In this document: in pieces, positions 2,151-15,670 of the stretch
Layout of the letters: each line of letters opens with the position of its first letter
Numbering within the stretch: position 1 is the first letter of the stretch
Origin: a virus
DNA length: 24,766 nt
IMG/VR virus record: IMGVR_UViG_3300030419_004708
Span: 9,431 to 34,196 of that record
Reading direction: 5' to 3' (one strand)
Made by a program: the position numbers and the translations under genes
The notes under the pieces: model-generated
Databases searched by the model: none
What the model saw: only the letters and a program-made list of their open reading frames with translations
What the model was told of the DNA's origin: nothing

Positions 2151-2180
2151 AAAAAGGAGTCCTTCGGGACTCCTTTTTTT
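2151..2180. terminator. Bidirectional intrinsic terminator with UUCG loop
   Basis: AGGAGTCC (2155-2162) pairs perfectly with GGACTCCT (2167-2174) around a TTCG tetraloop. It is preceded by an A-run (2151-2155) and followed by a T-run (2174-2180), so it can terminate on either strand. It sits between the convergent ends of gp32 and the minus-strand cluster. The TAA of the minus-strand gene (2181-2179) lies at the edge of the T-run. Confidence 0.93.
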
Positions 2181-3135
2181 ATCCTAAAGTTGTTCTCCAA
2201 GCAGGCAAGTTTCCAGTTGAGCGAAGGAAAGATTTACCAGAACCAATTGTAGAAGAAGAACCACGATTTACTGAACCACCATTGTTGTTTGGGTTTGGTG
2301 GGGGAGTAACTGGATTTGTGGGAACCGGGGCCGGAGCAGGAGACTTCAAATTCTGTTCTTTGAGATTAGAATTTTCTCCCATAGCCTCACTTGCAATTGC
2401 TGATGGATTTTGTTTTGTTGGTTCTAGACCTAAAAATCCCTGAATAGATGTTATGATATTTGAACCAAGACCCTCTAACATTTCCATAATATTTGATTGA
2501 GGTGCAATAATTTCTGGTTCTAATTTACCACTATCATCAGTTGCACCACCAACTAATGCTGGTTGTTCTTCCAACACTGTTCCTCCATTATGGAACATTG
2601 GTATTTTTACTGTGTTTTTATTTTTGTTTATTACATTGGTTATATTCTTTGTTAATAACTCATAATTCATATTCTTCATAGAATTTTCTATTTGTTCTTG
2701 GTTATTTGTTGTGTTGTGGTTTATCTTATTAGTTTTATCAATCAAAAAGGACTTGTTTACAATATCATTAGTTTTATTAATCAAAAAGGATTTGTTTGAA
2801 ATGTCCTTCGTATAATTTTTTATAAAAGATGATCTATTTACAGTATTTGTAATGTAGTTATTTTTGTTTTGATTCTTTAATAGATTTTCCACTTTCATCA
2901 TTTTCATTATTTTTTGCGGATTTGTTCTTATGAAATCATCAAGTTTATCAGATAATTTTTTGATGGAAACCATAGATTCATCGTTGTTATCGTTTTTGGT
3001 ATCCTGATTGTGCCGAACCTCGGGAATAGTTAAAATTTTAGAATAGAGATTTGGTTTATCTTTGAAGTTCAAAAATTTAACACCATTTTCAGACTTCAAC
3101 ATCTTTTTGAGAAGATTTTCTTTATTCTTTTTCAT
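2179..3135 (-). CDS. Small tape-measure-like tail protein, uncertain
   Basis: This 318-residue protein starts 3 nt after the stop of the gp26 frameshift extension, suggesting coupled translation. The N-terminal 170 residues are very Lys/Asn-rich and probably helical or extended. They contain three degenerate 13-residue repeats (NKSFLINKTNDIV type). The middle carries FHNGGTVLEEQPALVGG followed by EPEIIAP, which resembles the NGG...VGE.GPE.i.P motif near the C-terminus of many tape-measure proteins. The end is a Pro/Asn/Gly-rich linker closing with a short basic tail. Position after a G/GT-like chaperone pair fits a tape measure. At 318 residues it is much shorter than T4 gp29 (590), so it may be an accessory, a shortened relative, or an unrelated virion protein. 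The ribosome-binding site is weak. The coding call is firm; the function is tentative. Confidence 0.45.
   Translation of the reverse strand: MKKNKENLLKKMLKSENGVKFLNFKDKPNLYSKILTIPEVRHNQDTKNDNNDESMVSIKKLSDKLDDFIRTNPQKIMKMMKVENLLKNQNKNNYITNTVNRSSFIKNYTKDISNKSFLINKTNDIVNKSFLIDKTNKINHNTTNNQEQIENSMKNMNYELLTKNITNVINKNKNTVKIPMFHNGGTVLEEQPALVGGATDDSGKLEPEIIAPQSNIMEMLEGLGSNIITSIQGFLGLEPTKQNPSAIASEAMGENSNLKEQNLKSPAPAPVPTNPVTPPPNPNNNGGSVNRGSSSTIGSGKSFLRSTGNLPAWRTTLG
2728..2844 (-). repeat. Tandem 39-bp coding repeats
   Basis: Two adjacent 39-bp units (2728-2766 and 2767-2805) match at 34 of 39 positions by my count. A more diverged third unit extends to about 2844. Each encodes 13 residues of the type NKSFLI(N/D)KTN(D/K)I, within the Lys/Asn-rich N-terminal half of the protein at 2179-3135. 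Repeat number could change easily by slippage or recombination. Confidence 0.7.
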
Positions 3136-3138
3136 TTC

Positions 3139-3351
3139 TTATCCATACCTTGATCTATTTTTTGATTGCATTTGTGAAAGTTTGATTTTTTCATTTTCAT
3201 TTTTTATGAAAGCGATTACCTGGCTTAAATATATATCTCTTTCCCAAGGAATCATGTTCTCCAATTCAGATAAATTATAATTGTGTATATGAATTAGTTG
3301 GAAGTTAACAACAAAGTAGTCTTTCAGGCTTAGGTGACTAAGCCCTAGCCG
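3139..3351 (-). CDS. Start-less -1 frame extension of gp26 (predicted frameshift product)
   Basis: This open frame gives 70 residues after the shift site and stops with TAA at 3141-3139. It has no ATG before its residue 33, inside the best-looking part, and no ribosome-binding site. Expression as a -1 frameshift fusion to gp26 is therefore the natural reading: 238 + 70 = 308 residues covering 4064-3139. The extension contains NYNLSELENMIPWERDIYL followed by a charged helix (about extension residues 25-60). That pattern resembles the T domain of tail-assembly chaperones and the small orphan ORFs seen after gp26-like genes. In T4, gene 26 is followed by gene 51, a hub assembly factor, and the extension could be functionally related; that link is speculative. 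The tape-measure-like gene starts 3 nt downstream. Confidence 0.75.
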   Translation of the reverse strand, partial: RLGLSHLSLKDYFVVNFQLIHIHNYNLSELENMIPWERDIYLSQVIAFIKNENEKIKLSQMQSKNRSRYG

Positions 3352-3357
3352 AAAAAA
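3327..3357 (-). promoter_or_regulatory. -1 programmed ribosomal frameshift signal at the end of gp26
   Basis: On the minus strand, the heptamer T_TTT_TTC (3357-3351) lies in the correct phase of gp26 codons GAT TTT TTC. A 6-nt spacer GGCTAG (3350-3345) contains the zero-frame stop TAG. A perfect 7-bp stem follows, GGCTTAG (3344-3338 side read as CC..., 3333-3327 partner CTAAGCC), around a 4-nt loop. Slippery site, spacing and stimulatory stem all match canonical -1 signals. A -1 slip enters the open 70-codon frame. Confidence 0.8.
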
Positions 3358-4064
3358 TCCGATAGACCACTCAGCAGCACCTCCCTCTCTACACCATCAG
3401 AGGTAACATAGTTGATTGATTTTTCCAATTTTGGTATATTCACAAAGAAATTGAGTATTTTTTCAAATTGACTTTTTGTCATGTTGTCAACAAATTCTTC
3501 TACTTCAACAATTGGAAGTTGATCCACATTAATGGTTTCTTCTTTGGTTATTATTTTATCAATGCATCTTATTGCTAGATTATAAAATGATTCAGGATCT
3601 TGGAAATCAACCTCATAATCTTGATCTAATATTGTTTTTAGTGTGGGGTATTTCATTTTCAAAATAATATCGTCGCTTATTTTTATCTTATTTTCTTTTT
3701 GGGGTGTTCCTTTTAATTCTATTTCATTTAAATTAACTTCTAATTGGATTTCTTCTTCGGTGATAGGACATTTTATGATAGGATTTGCTAACTCTCCAAT
3801 TGATTTTGATCTTAATTTTATGAACAAATATTCAAGATCAAACAGAGGAAGAGAACTTGCATCACGAACACCATCAACACAATATTCTATAATTCTTTGT
3901 ATTGAATTTAATACCTCAGTGGTGCTTCCTGTATTTTGTGCCACAAGTAAAACCTTTTCTTCCTTTACCAGAAAAGGTCTAAATTTTGTTTTTTCCCCGG
4001 TGGAGGGAATGGTTATATCATACTTTGGTATGTTTGCCGTTAGGAGTTCAGATAAACGATTCAT
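3345..4064 (-). CDS. 26: gp26-like baseplate hub assembly protein / chaperone
   Basis: This 239-residue protein belongs to the T4 gp26-like baseplate family as found in marine T4-like phages (T4 gp26 is 208 aa). Supporting patterns are the N-terminal ITIPSTGEKTKFRPFLVKEE (about residues 18-37), then a helical stretch with CVDG, and FDLEYLFIKLRSKSIGE (about 98-114). A CPIT pattern and a long acidic C-terminal half follow. Family members act in hub assembly and may behave as a tail-assembly chaperone; here the -1 frameshift signal at the last codons supports the chaperone reading. AAAGGA lies 8-9 nt before the ATG. The gene starts 17 nt after the gp54-like stop, probably in the same transcript. 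The zero-frame product ends DFFG before TAG. Confidence 0.75.
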   Translation of the reverse strand: MNRLSELLTANIPKYDITIPSTGEKTKFRPFLVKEEKVLLVAQNTGSTTEVLNSIQRIIEYCVDGVRDASSLPLFDLEYLFIKLRSKSIGELANPIIKCPITEEEIQLEVNLNEIELKGTPQKENKIKISDDIILKMKYPTLKTILDQDYEVDFQDPESFYNLAIRCIDKIITKEETINVDQLPIVEVEEFVDNMTKSQFEKILNFFVNIPKLEKSINYVTSDGVEREVLLSGLSDFFG

Positions 4065-9475: not shown

Positions 9476-12400
9476 ATGAGATCATTTAGACCATGTTGCT
9501 GTGGTTGCTCTAGTAATGTATGTGATCTTGAAGAGTATCAATATGAAGATACTCGTAGTGTTGTTGCGGGTGGATCTATAAATTGTCCAGTTTGTGCAAT
9601 TGGAAGAACTTCTGCAAGAAAACAAGGAAATAATTTTCCCACATTCCAATACCTTTCATATCTAGATGCTGGTGAAATGAAACCAATGTATTCACATGGA
9701 GAAAACGAAGAGTTTTCTGAGGCTATGGGCCCAGGCGCTTTTCGTGACTATGGAATTTATGGAAATCATCTAAAGATCGGACACCCCTGTATGGATAGGT
9801 GGTCAAGAACACTTAAAAATGGTCATGCATCTCCTTGGTTTGAAATGCAAGAATTGGGTTGGACCGGTCGTTGGGGAGATGGTGCTGTTGTTCCTGCTTT
9901 GCATCTTTTACAACATGCGTTTGCCAGAGACTCTGAGGCCCAGTCGGGGTCGGATGCCCAAATGGGAGTATGGAATCCATTTAGCACACGCAATCGAGGA
10001 ATGGCTCCAGACGAGGATTGGTTTCCAAATCACAGCAGCGGGGGGGAATTTCTTAATCCACCGGAGGGGGAATATTATTATGATCATATGAACGAAATTT
10101 ATCGGTATAGAAATCCAGCAGCAAGAAATGTATGGGTAAGACAATATAGACCATATGAGTGGTTATTTGATACAAAATGGGATACTGGACAATGGGCTCC
10201 AAACAACGATTGGTTTATGACAGGGTATAGGGAAGTATATGATAACGGAGGTATAAATCCCTTCATTTATAATTTCAAAGACTGGCCAACCAACGAGGCC
10301 TACGATTCTCCAATGCCAGTATTCCCCTATCATCATTATGTTAATTATGATTTACCAAATGGTGGAGAGGATGTTACATTTAATAGTGAATATGTTTGGG
10401 CTTTTCAGAATAGTTGGTCAAATACATGTGGTTTTGATGGAATATCTCCATACGAATTGATTCATATTGATAGAGGACAAAGAGAACCAGGCATAAAGAA
10501 ACTTTTTCCGTGCGATTCAAATCATGCTGCTGGTGTTCATAATTATAATGTTCCAACTTGGTATTATGAAACTATTTCTCCTTTTGGTTATCTTCCATTC
10601 TCTCCTCAATTCTTTGATAGGTGGATTCATAAATTTGATGGTCCTCTATATCCCCAAGGAAATTGTAGTATGCATTGTACCGAAAGAAACATCTATGCAC
10701 ACAAACTTGCTTTCGTGGGATCAATTGGAACATTTTATCAAGGATATCATGACGGATCAAATTCCAAAAGATGTGTAGGTGATGGTAGACGTAATAATTT
10801 ATTGTACCCACTGGAGGAGAATTGGATTCTCAGATGGGGTGAGCATTCGGGGCCCGGATCAACTTATCATTCCCGTGCAACTAGGCCAATTTCTCCATGT
10901 GACATTATTGATTTTCCTTTGTATCAGGATGCTCATTGGGAAAATGTTTGTTCAGAATTGGGACTACCCGAAGAAATATGTAATCAAAATACAATCGGAT
11001 TTGGTTGCTCGCCCCGAAATGATGCGATAGCCGCTGGGGTCAACCCCGCTTTAAACAATACCCCCAGAGAGACAGAGTGTTGGAATTGTTCACAGGACAG
11101 CACCGATGCAATCGTTACCATACCACCAGATCCCGGAGAAAATTACGAAAATTGGGAGTGGATAAGACAATGGGTAAATTCTGGAGGCAAATTAGTAGTA
11201 TTGTATTCTTCCAAAGATATTATTGATGAAGGACGCAAGCAAGCAGGATTCATGGCGGACTATCAAGGAAGCAAATATTGGATTAAAAATTCTTCTTTTC
11301 CTAAAAGTTGTGGATCTTGGTTAACACATGAAGATACCGATCCAACCAAAGGAATGCAGGAACCAACTCCCTCCCCAAATTCTGGAACTTCATTTATACC
11401 CCAACTAACAGGCGACGACTCGAGCATTGATAGTATTATCAAACAGTTCTATGCAGAAGATCCAAATACCTCTTTTCATGGAGGAGACTATGTGGATGAG
11501 TCCGGTGTAGAAGAACTTCTATATCAATTTGCAACATATTGCTCAATGAGCGACGAAGAATTTGAAGAAAGTGGTGGTGTTCTTGTTCCTTTCTATGAAG
11601 GATTGTGTTCTCAAATACCTGATGATACTCCTTATTTTGAAGGTAGTATTTACCAAACATTAAAAGAAACTTGGTGTGGTAGAAGTGATAGTGTGAACTT
11701 CCATCCAAATCAACACGATTGGAATAATAGAAGAATGAGATCACCCTCTCAATGGGGGTATCTTCCGTTTTATGGTTCAGATGTGTCTGGACAAGGAGAA
11801 AATGATCCTACATACGGTCCGATTTATGAAGCACCATATAGAAGATATCACTATATGACGGAGGCGTATTATTCCTACACATACTATTACTGGCGGTTCG
11901 ACATGAACTCGCACTTAAATACACAATTTAAAGATAGACATAGATCTTTTAATGGACCTTCTTTTTCGGTGTTTTTTGATTATGATGAAGAGTGGTCTCC
12001 TATTGCTCCCGGTGGGTACTGGCTTACAGATCCCCTTCCAGGTCACGGAGGCACACCATACTATGATTCGTCTGTCGGAACTCACGCAAGAAGAGAAGAA
12101 GAGATGGCACTTGTTAGTAACGTCGGAATAGGAAAACAATGGCCAAATTATGATTATCTTGGAACTCATCCTTATTTTTGGTGGGGTGGTAACAAAAGTT
12201 TCTGGAGCGACTGGTTTTGGACTGATAATTGGTTCTATGGAGATGCTTCGCCCTGGACTGACGTTGAGTTTAATGATGATGATAGAAGAAGTTATTTGTC
12301 TTCTTACTTTAATTTTCTTGCAAGAGACTACCCTACATTTTTAAGTTGTCAAAAAACTAAAGGACCAAATACCACAAAGGAAGGAAAGCCTCTTTCGGTT

Positions 12401-15400
12401 ACGTCCATGAGCGGAGGGGATCCTCTTTTTCCAATAACAAGAAATGGAGGGAAATCTTTAGTCGGAGGAAATTGGCAATCTTTTGGTGGGATTTTTGACT
12501 ATGATTATTTCCAGTTCAATTCTGATGGGTGGGGGGATGAATGTGTAGTAAACCAAGACTGCCCCGGATATCATCAGAATTCAGAATCGAGAACAGAAAC
12601 ATGCTTTCATGGTTATTGTATAGGTTATGGACAGGAAAATTGTGATAATGAATGTGAATGTTCTTATTCCCAGTGGTACTATGACACGCAAAATGAGTGT
12701 GGTCCAGACGATTTGTATATTTGCGCCCGTGGAAGATGTCTATCCACCTTGTCTTGGAATTGGATTAATCTAATTAATGGTAGTGTACCAGACGATTACG
12801 GTGTCTGGTATAATTGGAGTGCTTATGGTTGGAACTCATCAACGGCTAATTACTCCAATAAATTATTGAAATATAGAAGAGTTATAGAGGCACCTTTTCA
12901 TTCAGATATGGGCCCTGCTGCTACTGTTTATGATGAACCGATGGGAAACGACATTTGGCCTTCGTTCATATTAGAAGATCCTATAGTTGATAATATTATT
13001 CAGAATGCTTGTAGCGTTGTTTATAAGAAACATGGAGATGGTGCAGTTATTGTTTCTTATGATCCTAGTTCCCTTGGTACTGCAACAAATTTCCCAGATA
13101 ATATGTTTACAAACGAATTAGACTATGATGGGAATGAAAGATTATATCAAGAAGAAAATCTATATGAATTTTTTGAAAATGCAGGGGACACTGGAGCGGA
13201 ACAAATTTCAAAATTTGCAAAAGAAAATCCTACTAATTTCTATGGAAACGATCCAGAGAATCCAGGTCTTACTCCTAAAGAGAGAAGAAAACACGCAGCA
13301 AATAATGATTTTTGGACTTTCATTTGCCAGGATTTCTTGAACAAAGATGGTCAAGATCCAGAATGGTTTGAAGAGTATGATGAAGATACACATGGACCTA
13401 GATTCTGGGATTATAAAGGTCCTTGGATCGGTGATGGTAGTAGTATGAGACTTGCTTATAAAAATAATCCATGCCTTGAACACTTGGATTCTGCTTGTTG
13501 TCTTCCTAGTGGTGGATGTGAAAATCTAAATCCTTGGGAATGTGCAGAACGGGGAGGAAGATGGCAAGGCATGAGAATGATGACAAATGCTTCTGATGCA
13601 TATGTTGAGGATGGTGGAAATTTTGGTTGGCAGACTGCCTTTAATCAGGGTTGGTTAAACGAATATGGAGATTGTTACGACGACGCCGCCGATTGGTGGG
13701 AGTTAAACGGTGGTTATGCCTCAGAGTTTGGTGCTGCAATTCCTAGAATTCAATTGCAGGGTAATTATTTCTTCCGAGGTCCAAGCACCCATACATGGTG
13801 GAATTTTTCGTCCTCGGAGGGCTCATATTCGCAGTCTCATAACTACAACAACAAAATCTTAAAGAGATATGGTCCAGGTCAAGTATATACGAGTAGATTT
13901 AGTGATTTTGGATTTAGGGCAAGATTTAAAAATTATTATGAAGCACCATTAACATTGGTGCCAGAACTGTGGTACGTTACTGACGGCGAAAATCCTGATC
14001 CCGGGCTTTGCGAAACGAGGACTCGGGAATTATTTAGTATGTTATCATGTCCTTATGGGGGGTATGTTTCACATGATCCAGATCCAAATAAATCATGTTT
14101 GAAAAAATGTGAGGACTTTGGTGCTGATTATCCAAGTGGACCGTGTGATCCTCCAAGAGAGGGAAATTGTTACTATAAATGCACAGATCTTGGATCTTGT
14201 CAGAGATCTCTCATTGGTGACAACCGAAGGGGAGAGTTTGATTATTCAGATGAGAATAGTTACTTTATTTCCAACTGGTGGGAAAGAAGAAGTTATTCTT
14301 CAGTTCCCGAATATCATTATCAACAGGATTATTGGTCAGAGCCACAAATAGGCTTTGAGGGGCGGTATCCGGGGCAAGCGAAGCGTCTTCAAGATTTATT
14401 TGAACCACTAGAATCAGAAGGGGATACGGATCTACAATGGGAACATTATTTAAGAAATAACTCAACACTTGTTGAGGGAATAACAAAAGTAGAATGTGCT
14501 GCACTTGCAACAAATGGTGGTGAAATTCCCGGACCTGGTGGAACGTGGGATCTTAGAAATTTCAACTCCGAGGAAGACGCAGAAAATGCTGGATGGTTCT
14601 ATTGGAGACCTTATGTGTATGGTTCCTGTTGCACTAATGTGGCACAACGGTACGGATCAGGTTGGGATGCATATTGGGAATATGAGGGTTCAAGTTGTTT
14701 TAATTCTTCAGATTATGAGTGTTTCCTTAAATCAACGGAGGATACAGATCCTGGCGATGATGACTGGTTCGGCGAACCAGAAGGGGATACTAGAATTCGT
14801 ACCGTGTTTAGACATGGTGCTAGTTGTGAAGAAGTTATATGCGCTCCGACCGCTGGCTATGGAGAGTACGGAGGAATGTGTATAGGATCCTCTGGACAAT
14901 ATTTCCAAGGATGCGGCGGTTCACTTGATCCTATTGGAGCATGTTGCCATGTTGATTGTATTGATAACGTAACAGAGGCATGGTGTGAAAACTATACTGG
15001 TAGTTTTGATGATAACGATAGTAATCCTTATAACGATAGTCCGTTTGATTCCGAGTGGTTTGAAGGACAGAGTTGTAAAGAAGCATGTGCATATGGAGCA
15101 TGTTGTGGTACGCCTTCAGAACAGCAATCATGGGGAACCTGTGGAGTTGAAGAGTTCTGGGAGATACGAAATGGTTGTATAGATTATCAAATAACACAAA
15201 AAGGTTGTGAAGAATACCGCGATGGAACATGGAACGGAGATAACACAGTGTGTGCGCGGGCAAACAATTCATTTAATGTATGTTATTATGATGAAGGAGA
15301 ATGTGATACAACATGTTGCACATGTGTTGCATATCCAGAAACTGGGCCCGGATGCGGTGCCCCCGGTGACTGGTCAGAACCGTGCGAAGATTCCTGTTTC

Positions 15401-15670
15401 TTCGTTGGATATGCACCACAGGCAGATCATGTTAGTTGTGGAGATGCAAATATCGGCGCAGATTATATAAGATGGGTTATGTTGGGTACTTGGGGAGGTG
15501 ATTGTGATTATTGGTTGGATGCGTTGAATTATATTGAACAGTATGGAATTATTGCACAACATCAAGTATCTCTGAAAACTTTATGTGAAGAACATCAAGG
15601 GAATTGCTACAATTATTGTCAAGATCTATACAATGAAGTTTATCAAGGAAATCCAGTTGATTGCGGTTGA
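9476..15670 (+). CDS. Giant cysteine- and tryptophan-rich virion protein
   Basis: This unbroken 2064-residue frame has AAAGG before the ATG and starts 14 nt after the previous stop. By my count it has about 85 cysteines, nearly half in the last quarter, and is exceptionally rich in Trp, Tyr, Gly, Asn and Asp. The N-terminus has a tight cluster (CCCGC...C, then CPVC by residue 40). Around 1023 there is a CVVNQDC...CFHGYC...CDNECEC block like small disulfide-rich repeats. Modules of the form CC-x(4-6)-C-x(7)-C-x(3)-GG-x-W recur near 1340 and, in variants, near 1823 and 1876. A segment near 560-575 (WVNSGGKLVVLYSS) looks like an alpha/beta strand-turn. No signal peptide, membrane span, lysozyme motif or other catalytic signature was recognised. 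Placement between the gp27-like genes suggests a baseplate or hub-attached component, which is inference. Confidence 0.55.
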   Translation: MRSFRPCCCGCSSNVCDLEEYQYEDTRSVVAGGSINCPVCAIGRTSARKQGNNFPTFQYLSYLDAGEMKPMYSHGENEEFSEAMGPGAFRDYGIYGNHLKIGHPCMDRWSRTLKNGHASPWFEMQELGWTGRWGDGAVVPALHLLQHAFARDSEAQSGSDAQMGVWNPFSTRNRGMAPDEDWFPNHSSGGEFLNPPEGEYYYDHMNEIYRYRNPAARNVWVRQYRPYEWLFDTKWDTGQWAPNNDWFMTGYREVYDNGGINPFIYNFKDWPTNEAYDSPMPVFPYHHYVNYDLPNGGEDVTFNSEYVWAFQNSWSNTCGFDGISPYELIHIDRGQREPGIKKLFPCDSNHAAGVHNYNVPTWYYETISPFGYLPFSPQFFDRWIHKFDGPLYPQGNCSMHCTERNIYAHKLAFVGSIGTFYQGYHDGSNSKRCVGDGRRNNLLYPLEENWILRWGEHSGPGSTYHSRATRPISPCDIIDFPLYQDAHWENVCSELGLPEEICNQNTIGFGCSPRNDAIAAGVNPALNNTPRETECWNCSQDSTDAIVTIPPDPGENYENWEWIRQWVNSGGKLVVLYSSKDIIDEGRKQAGFMADYQGSKYWIKNSSFPKSCGSWLTHEDTDPTKGMQEPTPSPNSGTSFIPQLTGDDSSIDSIIKQFYAEDPNTSFHGGDYVDESGVEELLYQFATYCSMSDEEFEESGGVLVPFYEGLCSQIPDDTPYFEGSIYQTLKETWCGRSDSVNFHPNQHDWNNRRMRSPSQWGYLPFYGSDVSGQGENDPTYGPIYEAPYRRYHYMTEAYYSYTYYYWRFDMNSHLNTQFKDRHRSFNGPSFSVFFDYDEEWSPIAPGGYWLTDPLPGHGGTPYYDSSVGTHARREEEMALVSNVGIGKQWPNYDYLGTHPYFWWGGNKSFWSDWFWTDNWFYGDASPWTDVEFNDDDRRSYLSSYFNFLARDYPTFLSCQKTKGPNTTKEGKPLSVTSMSGGDPLFPITRNGGKSLVGGNWQSFGGIFDYDYFQFNSDGWGDECVVNQDCPGYHQNSESRTETCFHGYCIGYGQENCDNECECSYSQWYYDTQNECGPDDLYICARGRCLSTLSWNWINLINGSVPDDYGVWYNWSAYGWNSSTANYSNKLLKYRRVIEAPFHSDMGPAATVYDEPMGNDIWPSFILEDPIVDNIIQNACSVVYKKHGDGAVIVSYDPSSLGTATNFPDNMFTNELDYDGNERLYQEENLYEFFENAGDTGAEQISKFAKENPTNFYGNDPENPGLTPKERRKHAANNDFWTFICQDFLNKDGQDPEWFEEYDEDTHGPRFWDYKGPWIGDGSSMRLAYKNNPCLEHLDSACCLPSGGCENLNPWECAERGGRWQGMRMMTNASDAYVEDGGNFGWQTAFNQGWLNEYGDCYDDAADWWELNGGYASEFGAAIPRIQLQGNYFFRGPSTHTWWNFSSSEGSYSQSHNYNNKILKRYGPGQVYTSRFSDFGFRARFKNYYEAPLTLVPELWYVTDGENPDPGLCETRTRELFSMLSCPYGGYVSHDPDPNKSCLKKCEDFGADYPSGPCDPPREGNCYYKCTDLGSCQRSLIGDNRRGEFDYSDENSYFISNWWERRSYSSVPEYHYQQDYWSEPQIGFEGRYPGQAKRLQDLFEPLESEGDTDLQWEHYLRNNSTLVEGITKVECAALATNGGEIPGPGGTWDLRNFNSEEDAENAGWFYWRPYVYGSCCTNVAQRYGSGWDAYWEYEGSSCFNSSDYECFLKSTEDTDPGDDDWFGEPEGDTRIRTVFRHGASCEEVICAPTAGYGEYGGMCIGSSGQYFQGCGGSLDPIGACCHVDCIDNVTEAWCENYTGSFDDNDSNPYNDSPFDSEWFEGQSCKEACAYGACCGTPSEQQSWGTCGVEEFWEIRNGCIDYQITQKGCEEYRDGTWNGDNTVCARANNSFNVCYYDEGECDTTCCTCVAYPETGPGCGAPGDWSEPCEDSCFFVGYAPQADHVSCGDANIGADYIRWVMLGTWGGDCDYWLDALNYIEQYGIIAQHQVSLKTLCEEHQGNCYNYCQDLYNEVYQGNPVDCG

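Follow-up and report, generated by a model that had tools for sequence, protein, structure and literature searches.

How a marine T4-like virus translates an open frame that has no start of its own is the question raised by the 3' end of gene 26 on the minus strand of the window, a stretch of 24,766 nucleotides that forms part of a 34,196-base IMG/VR virus record. At the end of this gene a second frame, shifted by -1, stays open past the gp26 stop codon, and it could be read either as a gene in its own right or as a continuation of gp26 that ribosomes reach by slipping back one nucleotide. An earlier interpretation of the DNA, made from its letters alone (here the sequence-only reading), had proposed the latter, with gp26 prolonged through a programmed -1 frameshift by a start-less, chaperone-like extension. 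The comparative evidence is supportive: we consider it highly probable that frameshifting at this site gives a TAC-N / TAC-NC pair, gp26 and the gp26-51 fusion being best read as the short (TAC-N) and long (TAC-NC) tail assembly chaperones. The features of the locus are the following.

3345..4064, minus strand: gene 26, T4_baseplate family, 239 aa, interpreted as TAC-N, the short tail assembly chaperone (PF12322, E 3.5e-53; phrog_150, E 1e-55)
3357..3351, minus strand: slippery heptamer T_TTT_TTC in the phase of gp26 (from the sequence, and from its register at the loci encoding the -1 protein)
3350..3345, minus strand: 6-nt spacer GGCTAG with the gp26 stop TAG at 3347..3345 (from the sequence)
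3344..3327, minus strand: likely stimulatory hairpin, perfect 7-bp stem with a 4-nt loop (from synonymous shuffles and compensatory changes)
3139..3357, minus strand: -1 extension, start-less, gp51-like C-terminal domain of the predicted TAC-NC (phrog_634, 'baseplate hub assembly catalyst', E 7.4e-22)
2179..3135, minus strand: next gene, 318 aa, in the position expected for the tape measure (no significant family)

A predicted -1 frameshift site at the end of gene 26

Gene 26 (4064..3345, minus strand) ends in GAT TTT TTC GGC TAG, which places an X_XXY_YYZ heptamer in the zero frame, as in -1 programmed frameshift sites; the 3' structure that such sites carry at short spacing is present as a 7-bp hairpin past the 6-nt spacer, made up of GGCTTAG (3344..3338), the loop TCAC (3337..3334) and CTAAGCC (3333..3327). 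The sequence-only reading had named the heptamer in gp26 phase, the stop-bearing spacer and the perfect stem, and all of these are borne out by the sequence.

In the mechanism that we propose, gene 26 would encode the short chaperone TAC-N, and the 3' hairpin would slow the ribosome at T_TTT_TTC, where a fraction of ribosomes would slip by -1, bypass the stop and continue in the -1 frame. The product of slippage would be a minor gp26-gp51 fusion of 308 aa, TAC-NC, with 238 residues predicted to come from gp26 and 70 from the extension. Following the precedent of lambda G/GT, the gp26 portion may bind the tape measure or a hub precursor while the extension may recruit tail tube subunits. We infer the slippage itself, its efficiency, the short:long ratio, the binding partners and the chaperone role in this virus; the slip site, the stem, the selected start-less -1 frame and the homology to the C-terminus of T4 gp51 emerge from comparison among related sequences.

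The -1 frame is under selection ahead of any possible start

Starting at the heptamer, 72 codons of the -1 frame can be read before a TAA at 3141..3139. Its earliest ATG, GTG or TTG is a TTG at 3264 (codon 32) and its earliest ATG lies at 3255 (codon 35), within a conserved ELENMIPWER block. The sequence-only reading, which had given 70 open codons and no usable start ahead of the conserved part, holds here too. The start-less stretch is nonetheless protein-coding in its pattern of change: over 17 codons, the first 12 nt from the heptamer start, pN/pS in the -1 frame is 0.225 (331 pairs), similar to the 0.263 of the gp26 end in its own frame, while the other two frames of the same 17-codon region give 1.3 and 2.3. 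The -1 stretch before any possible start is under purifying selection, and a selected -1 protein that has no start of its own is what a -1 programmed frameshift site would leave behind.

The least improbable alternative makes the gp51-like ORF a gene of its own, which ribosomes would reach past the gp26 stop by re-initiation or translational coupling, as many database records have it. The -1 ORF is indeed entered as a separate gp51 gene in the records of S-PM2 and S-ShM2, and in 33 of 73 relatives one of the six opening codons of the -1 frame, right behind the gp26 stop, is an ATG, so that separate initiation is possible in these. Against this, the first possible start in the window comes only at codon 32, and there is no ATG, GTG or TTG within the first 17 codons in 18/73 relatives, nor any ahead of the PWE motif in the relative L077, yet this stretch is under purifying selection; moreover, the heptamer is retained even in relatives that have an ATG in the -1 frame. 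The architecture of T4-type gp51 also speaks against an independent gene. The gp51 of CGG4-1 matches nearly the full profile of the gp26 family (positions 13-282 of 282 of phrog_150 covered; residues 1-200 matched to PF12322), while the extension can be aligned to the C-terminal end of this gp51 (hhalign probability 76, E 2.3e-5), from which we conclude that T4-type gp51 consists of a gp26 domain with the extension attached. It is the long form encoded as a gene of its own, and it has the composition that defines a TAC pair, a long form consisting of the short form plus a C-terminal extension. On this evidence we regard an independent gene as very unlikely.

T4 and the window have the gp26 family (phrog_150, PF12322) in common, as well as the C-terminal extension (phrog_634), but differ in how the long form is obtained: in T4 it comes from a separate, divergently transcribed gene 51, whereas in the window one gene and a predicted frameshift would provide both forms. 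Gene 51 is divergent from gene 26 in T4, CGG4-1 and MIZ2, and the end of T4 gp26 (GAG TTC TTT GAG TTA CTA TAA) has no heptamer.

The sequence-only reading had further suggested that frameshifting could explain orphan ORFs after gp26, and the comparative evidence accounts for the orphan 'gp51' ORFs in this way. The -1 protein matched 523 phage records at E up to 10, mostly cyanophages; 'gp51, baseplate hub assembly catalyst' is the name that this domain bears in some 520 phage records. Frameshifting would thus offer one explanation for the short 'gp51' ORFs annotated separately in hundreds of T4-like marine phage genomes: these would be the C-terminal part of a frameshift product, the real protein probably being a gp26-gp51 fusion, and the 'baseplate hub assembly catalyst' label would conceal a tail assembly chaperone. 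Start-less copies (S-CAM1, Aeh1, AS-zj) are omitted from annotation altogether.

Heptamer and hairpin are conserved in relatives

The sequence-only reading had put forward conservation of the heptamer, the stem and the -1 ORF among relatives as the check on its proposal, and conservation was found for each. The 73 relatives had been picked on T6, which makes them circular for conservation of the heptamer, and the count uses instead 80 viral contigs selected solely by a match to the -1 protein, without using the heptamer or gp26. T_TTT_TTN stands in register directly upstream of the -1 protein in all of them (80/80) and at the end of a gp26-type frame in 79/80; compared with a background of 0.0013 in-phase T_TTT_TTN per codon (102,672 codons, a figure in which the gp26 sites are included), this makes the site more than chance. 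The heptamer is TTTTTTC in 61 of 66 unique sequences. The codon preceding the two Phe codons is GAT, AGT, TCT, AAT or GCT (D, S, N, A), always with T as third base, and the first Phe codon is TTT in every case; this constancy of a T-ending codon followed by TTT has a log10 P of about -11 (35 clusters below 80% identity; pooled synonymous usage). The gp26 stop of the 73 relatives begins 10 nt (57/73) or 7 nt (11/73) from the heptamer start. A gp26-based scan of viral contigs gave one locus. In the one remaining contig of the 80, L050, the gp26 frame spans just a few codons before the T run (around position 500), probably through a deletion or misassembly.

The hairpin is supported both in the window and across relatives. 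Compared with synonymous-codon shuffles in which the -1 protein is left unchanged, the hairpin of the window has a z of -3.64 (p 0.003), and the same shuffles applied to the stem across 73 sequences give a mean z of -2.26, with 68% below -1. Within the clade of the window, compensatory changes on both sides occur at 4/7 stem pairs, and 76.9% of cells are paired vs 11-44% when the partner is slid. In one subclade (L042, L046, L047, L060, L064, L066, L078, L081, L083, L095, L096) a TAA directly follows TTT TTC, and in the shuffle analysis of the 73 sequences its members mostly have no clear local stem; the stop adjoining the slip site may itself be the stimulator there.

These data also bear on whether the fusion could arise when the polymerase, not the ribosome, slips on the T run. 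A homopolymer does make up the site, with six T and, in a few relatives, more, but T6 is short for slippage by bacterial polymerases, the run is held in X_XXY_YYZ register, and a nearby 3' stem with compensatory changes is retained; we consider transcriptional slippage less probable still than an independent gene. Least probable is a chance T-rich sequence beside a decayed ORF: these sequences are AT-rich, and 0.9% of their codons do carry an in-phase slippery heptamer of some type, but the position-specific conservation in 79/80 loci, the stem covariation and the selection on the -1 frame rule it out.

Relation to known tail assembly chaperone systems

The predicted arrangement resembles that of lambda G/GT, with a short protein, a minor -1 fusion and a slip site close to where the short gene stops. 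The slip sequence of lambda is G_GGA_AAG, unlike the T_TTT_TTC of the window. The lambda proteins are tail assembly chaperones (Levin et al. 1993; Xu et al. 2004, both as cited in PMC5009743).

Frameshift-made TAC systems have been described before, as has the role of the gp26 family, and this virus would be a further case. PMC10885494 and PMC12846349 attribute the identification of TAC genes in T4-like phages to Vladimirov, Gautam and Davidson (2022, Virology 566:9-15). Citing that study, PMC10885494 describes some T4-like phages as having a short gene plus a longer fusion copy, with no frameshifting, and PMC12846349 refers to it for poly-T slip signals within the TAC-N genes that T4-like phages carry. 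The suggestion that frameshifting had gone unreported for the gp26 family does not stand beside this last citation. Similar in layout is the TAC locus of Vandenendeviridae and Andersonviridae (PMC12846349), where TAC-N ends close to a conserved poly-T motif for slippage (GTTTTT) and the -1 frame is likewise open and is annotated as a separate gene or as intergenic; these are, however, other phage families, and the window has T_TTT_TTC together with a 3' stem supported by covariation.

Spread among phages

The heptamer and the -1 ORF are found also in Aeromonas AS-zj and Aeh1, Vibrio vB_VmeM-32 (with T_TTT_TTT) and D490, Citrobacter Ci1, Stenotrophomonas Mendera (Menderavirus) and Ochrobactrum OC, and Pootjesviridae share them (OLIVR5, and RL2RES and phiM9 with T_TTT_TTG). 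It is conceivable, though we would not count on it, that the frameshift is the ancestral route to the long chaperone in gp26-type myoviruses, kept with the hairpin in Kyanoviridae, several Straboviridae lineages and Pootjesviridae, that in T4 an in-frame duplicate, gene 51, later took the place of the frameshift, and that Ackermannviridae rely on a further, non-canonical NTTTTC site.

At the gp26 ends of Ackermannviridae (L010, L013, L102-L105) there is a -1 ORF with a conserved MPWHLD block. Their junctions have no T6 heptamer, carrying ATTTTC, GTTTTC or CTTTTC instead, and some copies, L010 among them, lack an early ATG in the -1 frame.

Structure of gp26 and the neighbouring gene

The assignment of gp26 to a tail assembly chaperone family comes from its membership of PF12322 / phrog_150, whose TAC status goes back to Vladimirov 2022 as cited in PMC10885494. 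For the N-terminus of its structural model (pLDDT 88.9) the best VIA match is the HK97 tail assembly chaperone 2OB9 (Z 7.8, rmsd 4.2, 87 residues), followed by YqbN 3KLU (7.2), 3FGX (6.6) and 5IR0 (4.3), with the following rows near Z 3. This is suggestive only of an HK97 TAC-like fold, as values in this Z range can mean merely a common arrangement; sequence identity to 2OB9 is 10%, and gp26 has, beyond the HK97 protein, a further strand-rich part at about residues 95-235. Foldseek of the gp26 model against the PDB gave nothing significant (HK97 TAC at an E of about 2), and a sequence search of solved structures returned no match for gp26 and matches at chance level for gp51. The two parts of the predicted fusion were folded separately, the fusion being no straight translation of one frame, and the extension was modelled as helices.

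The next large gene of relatives is long and in some of them gives weak tape-measure matches. In S-CAM1, S-ShM2 and S-PM2 the next gene is far longer than the 318-aa gene at 2179-3135 (minus strand) of the window. Elsewhere in the window, at 9476-15670 on the plus strand, an ORF of 2064 aa among the tail genes is visibly rich in Cys, Trp and Tyr.
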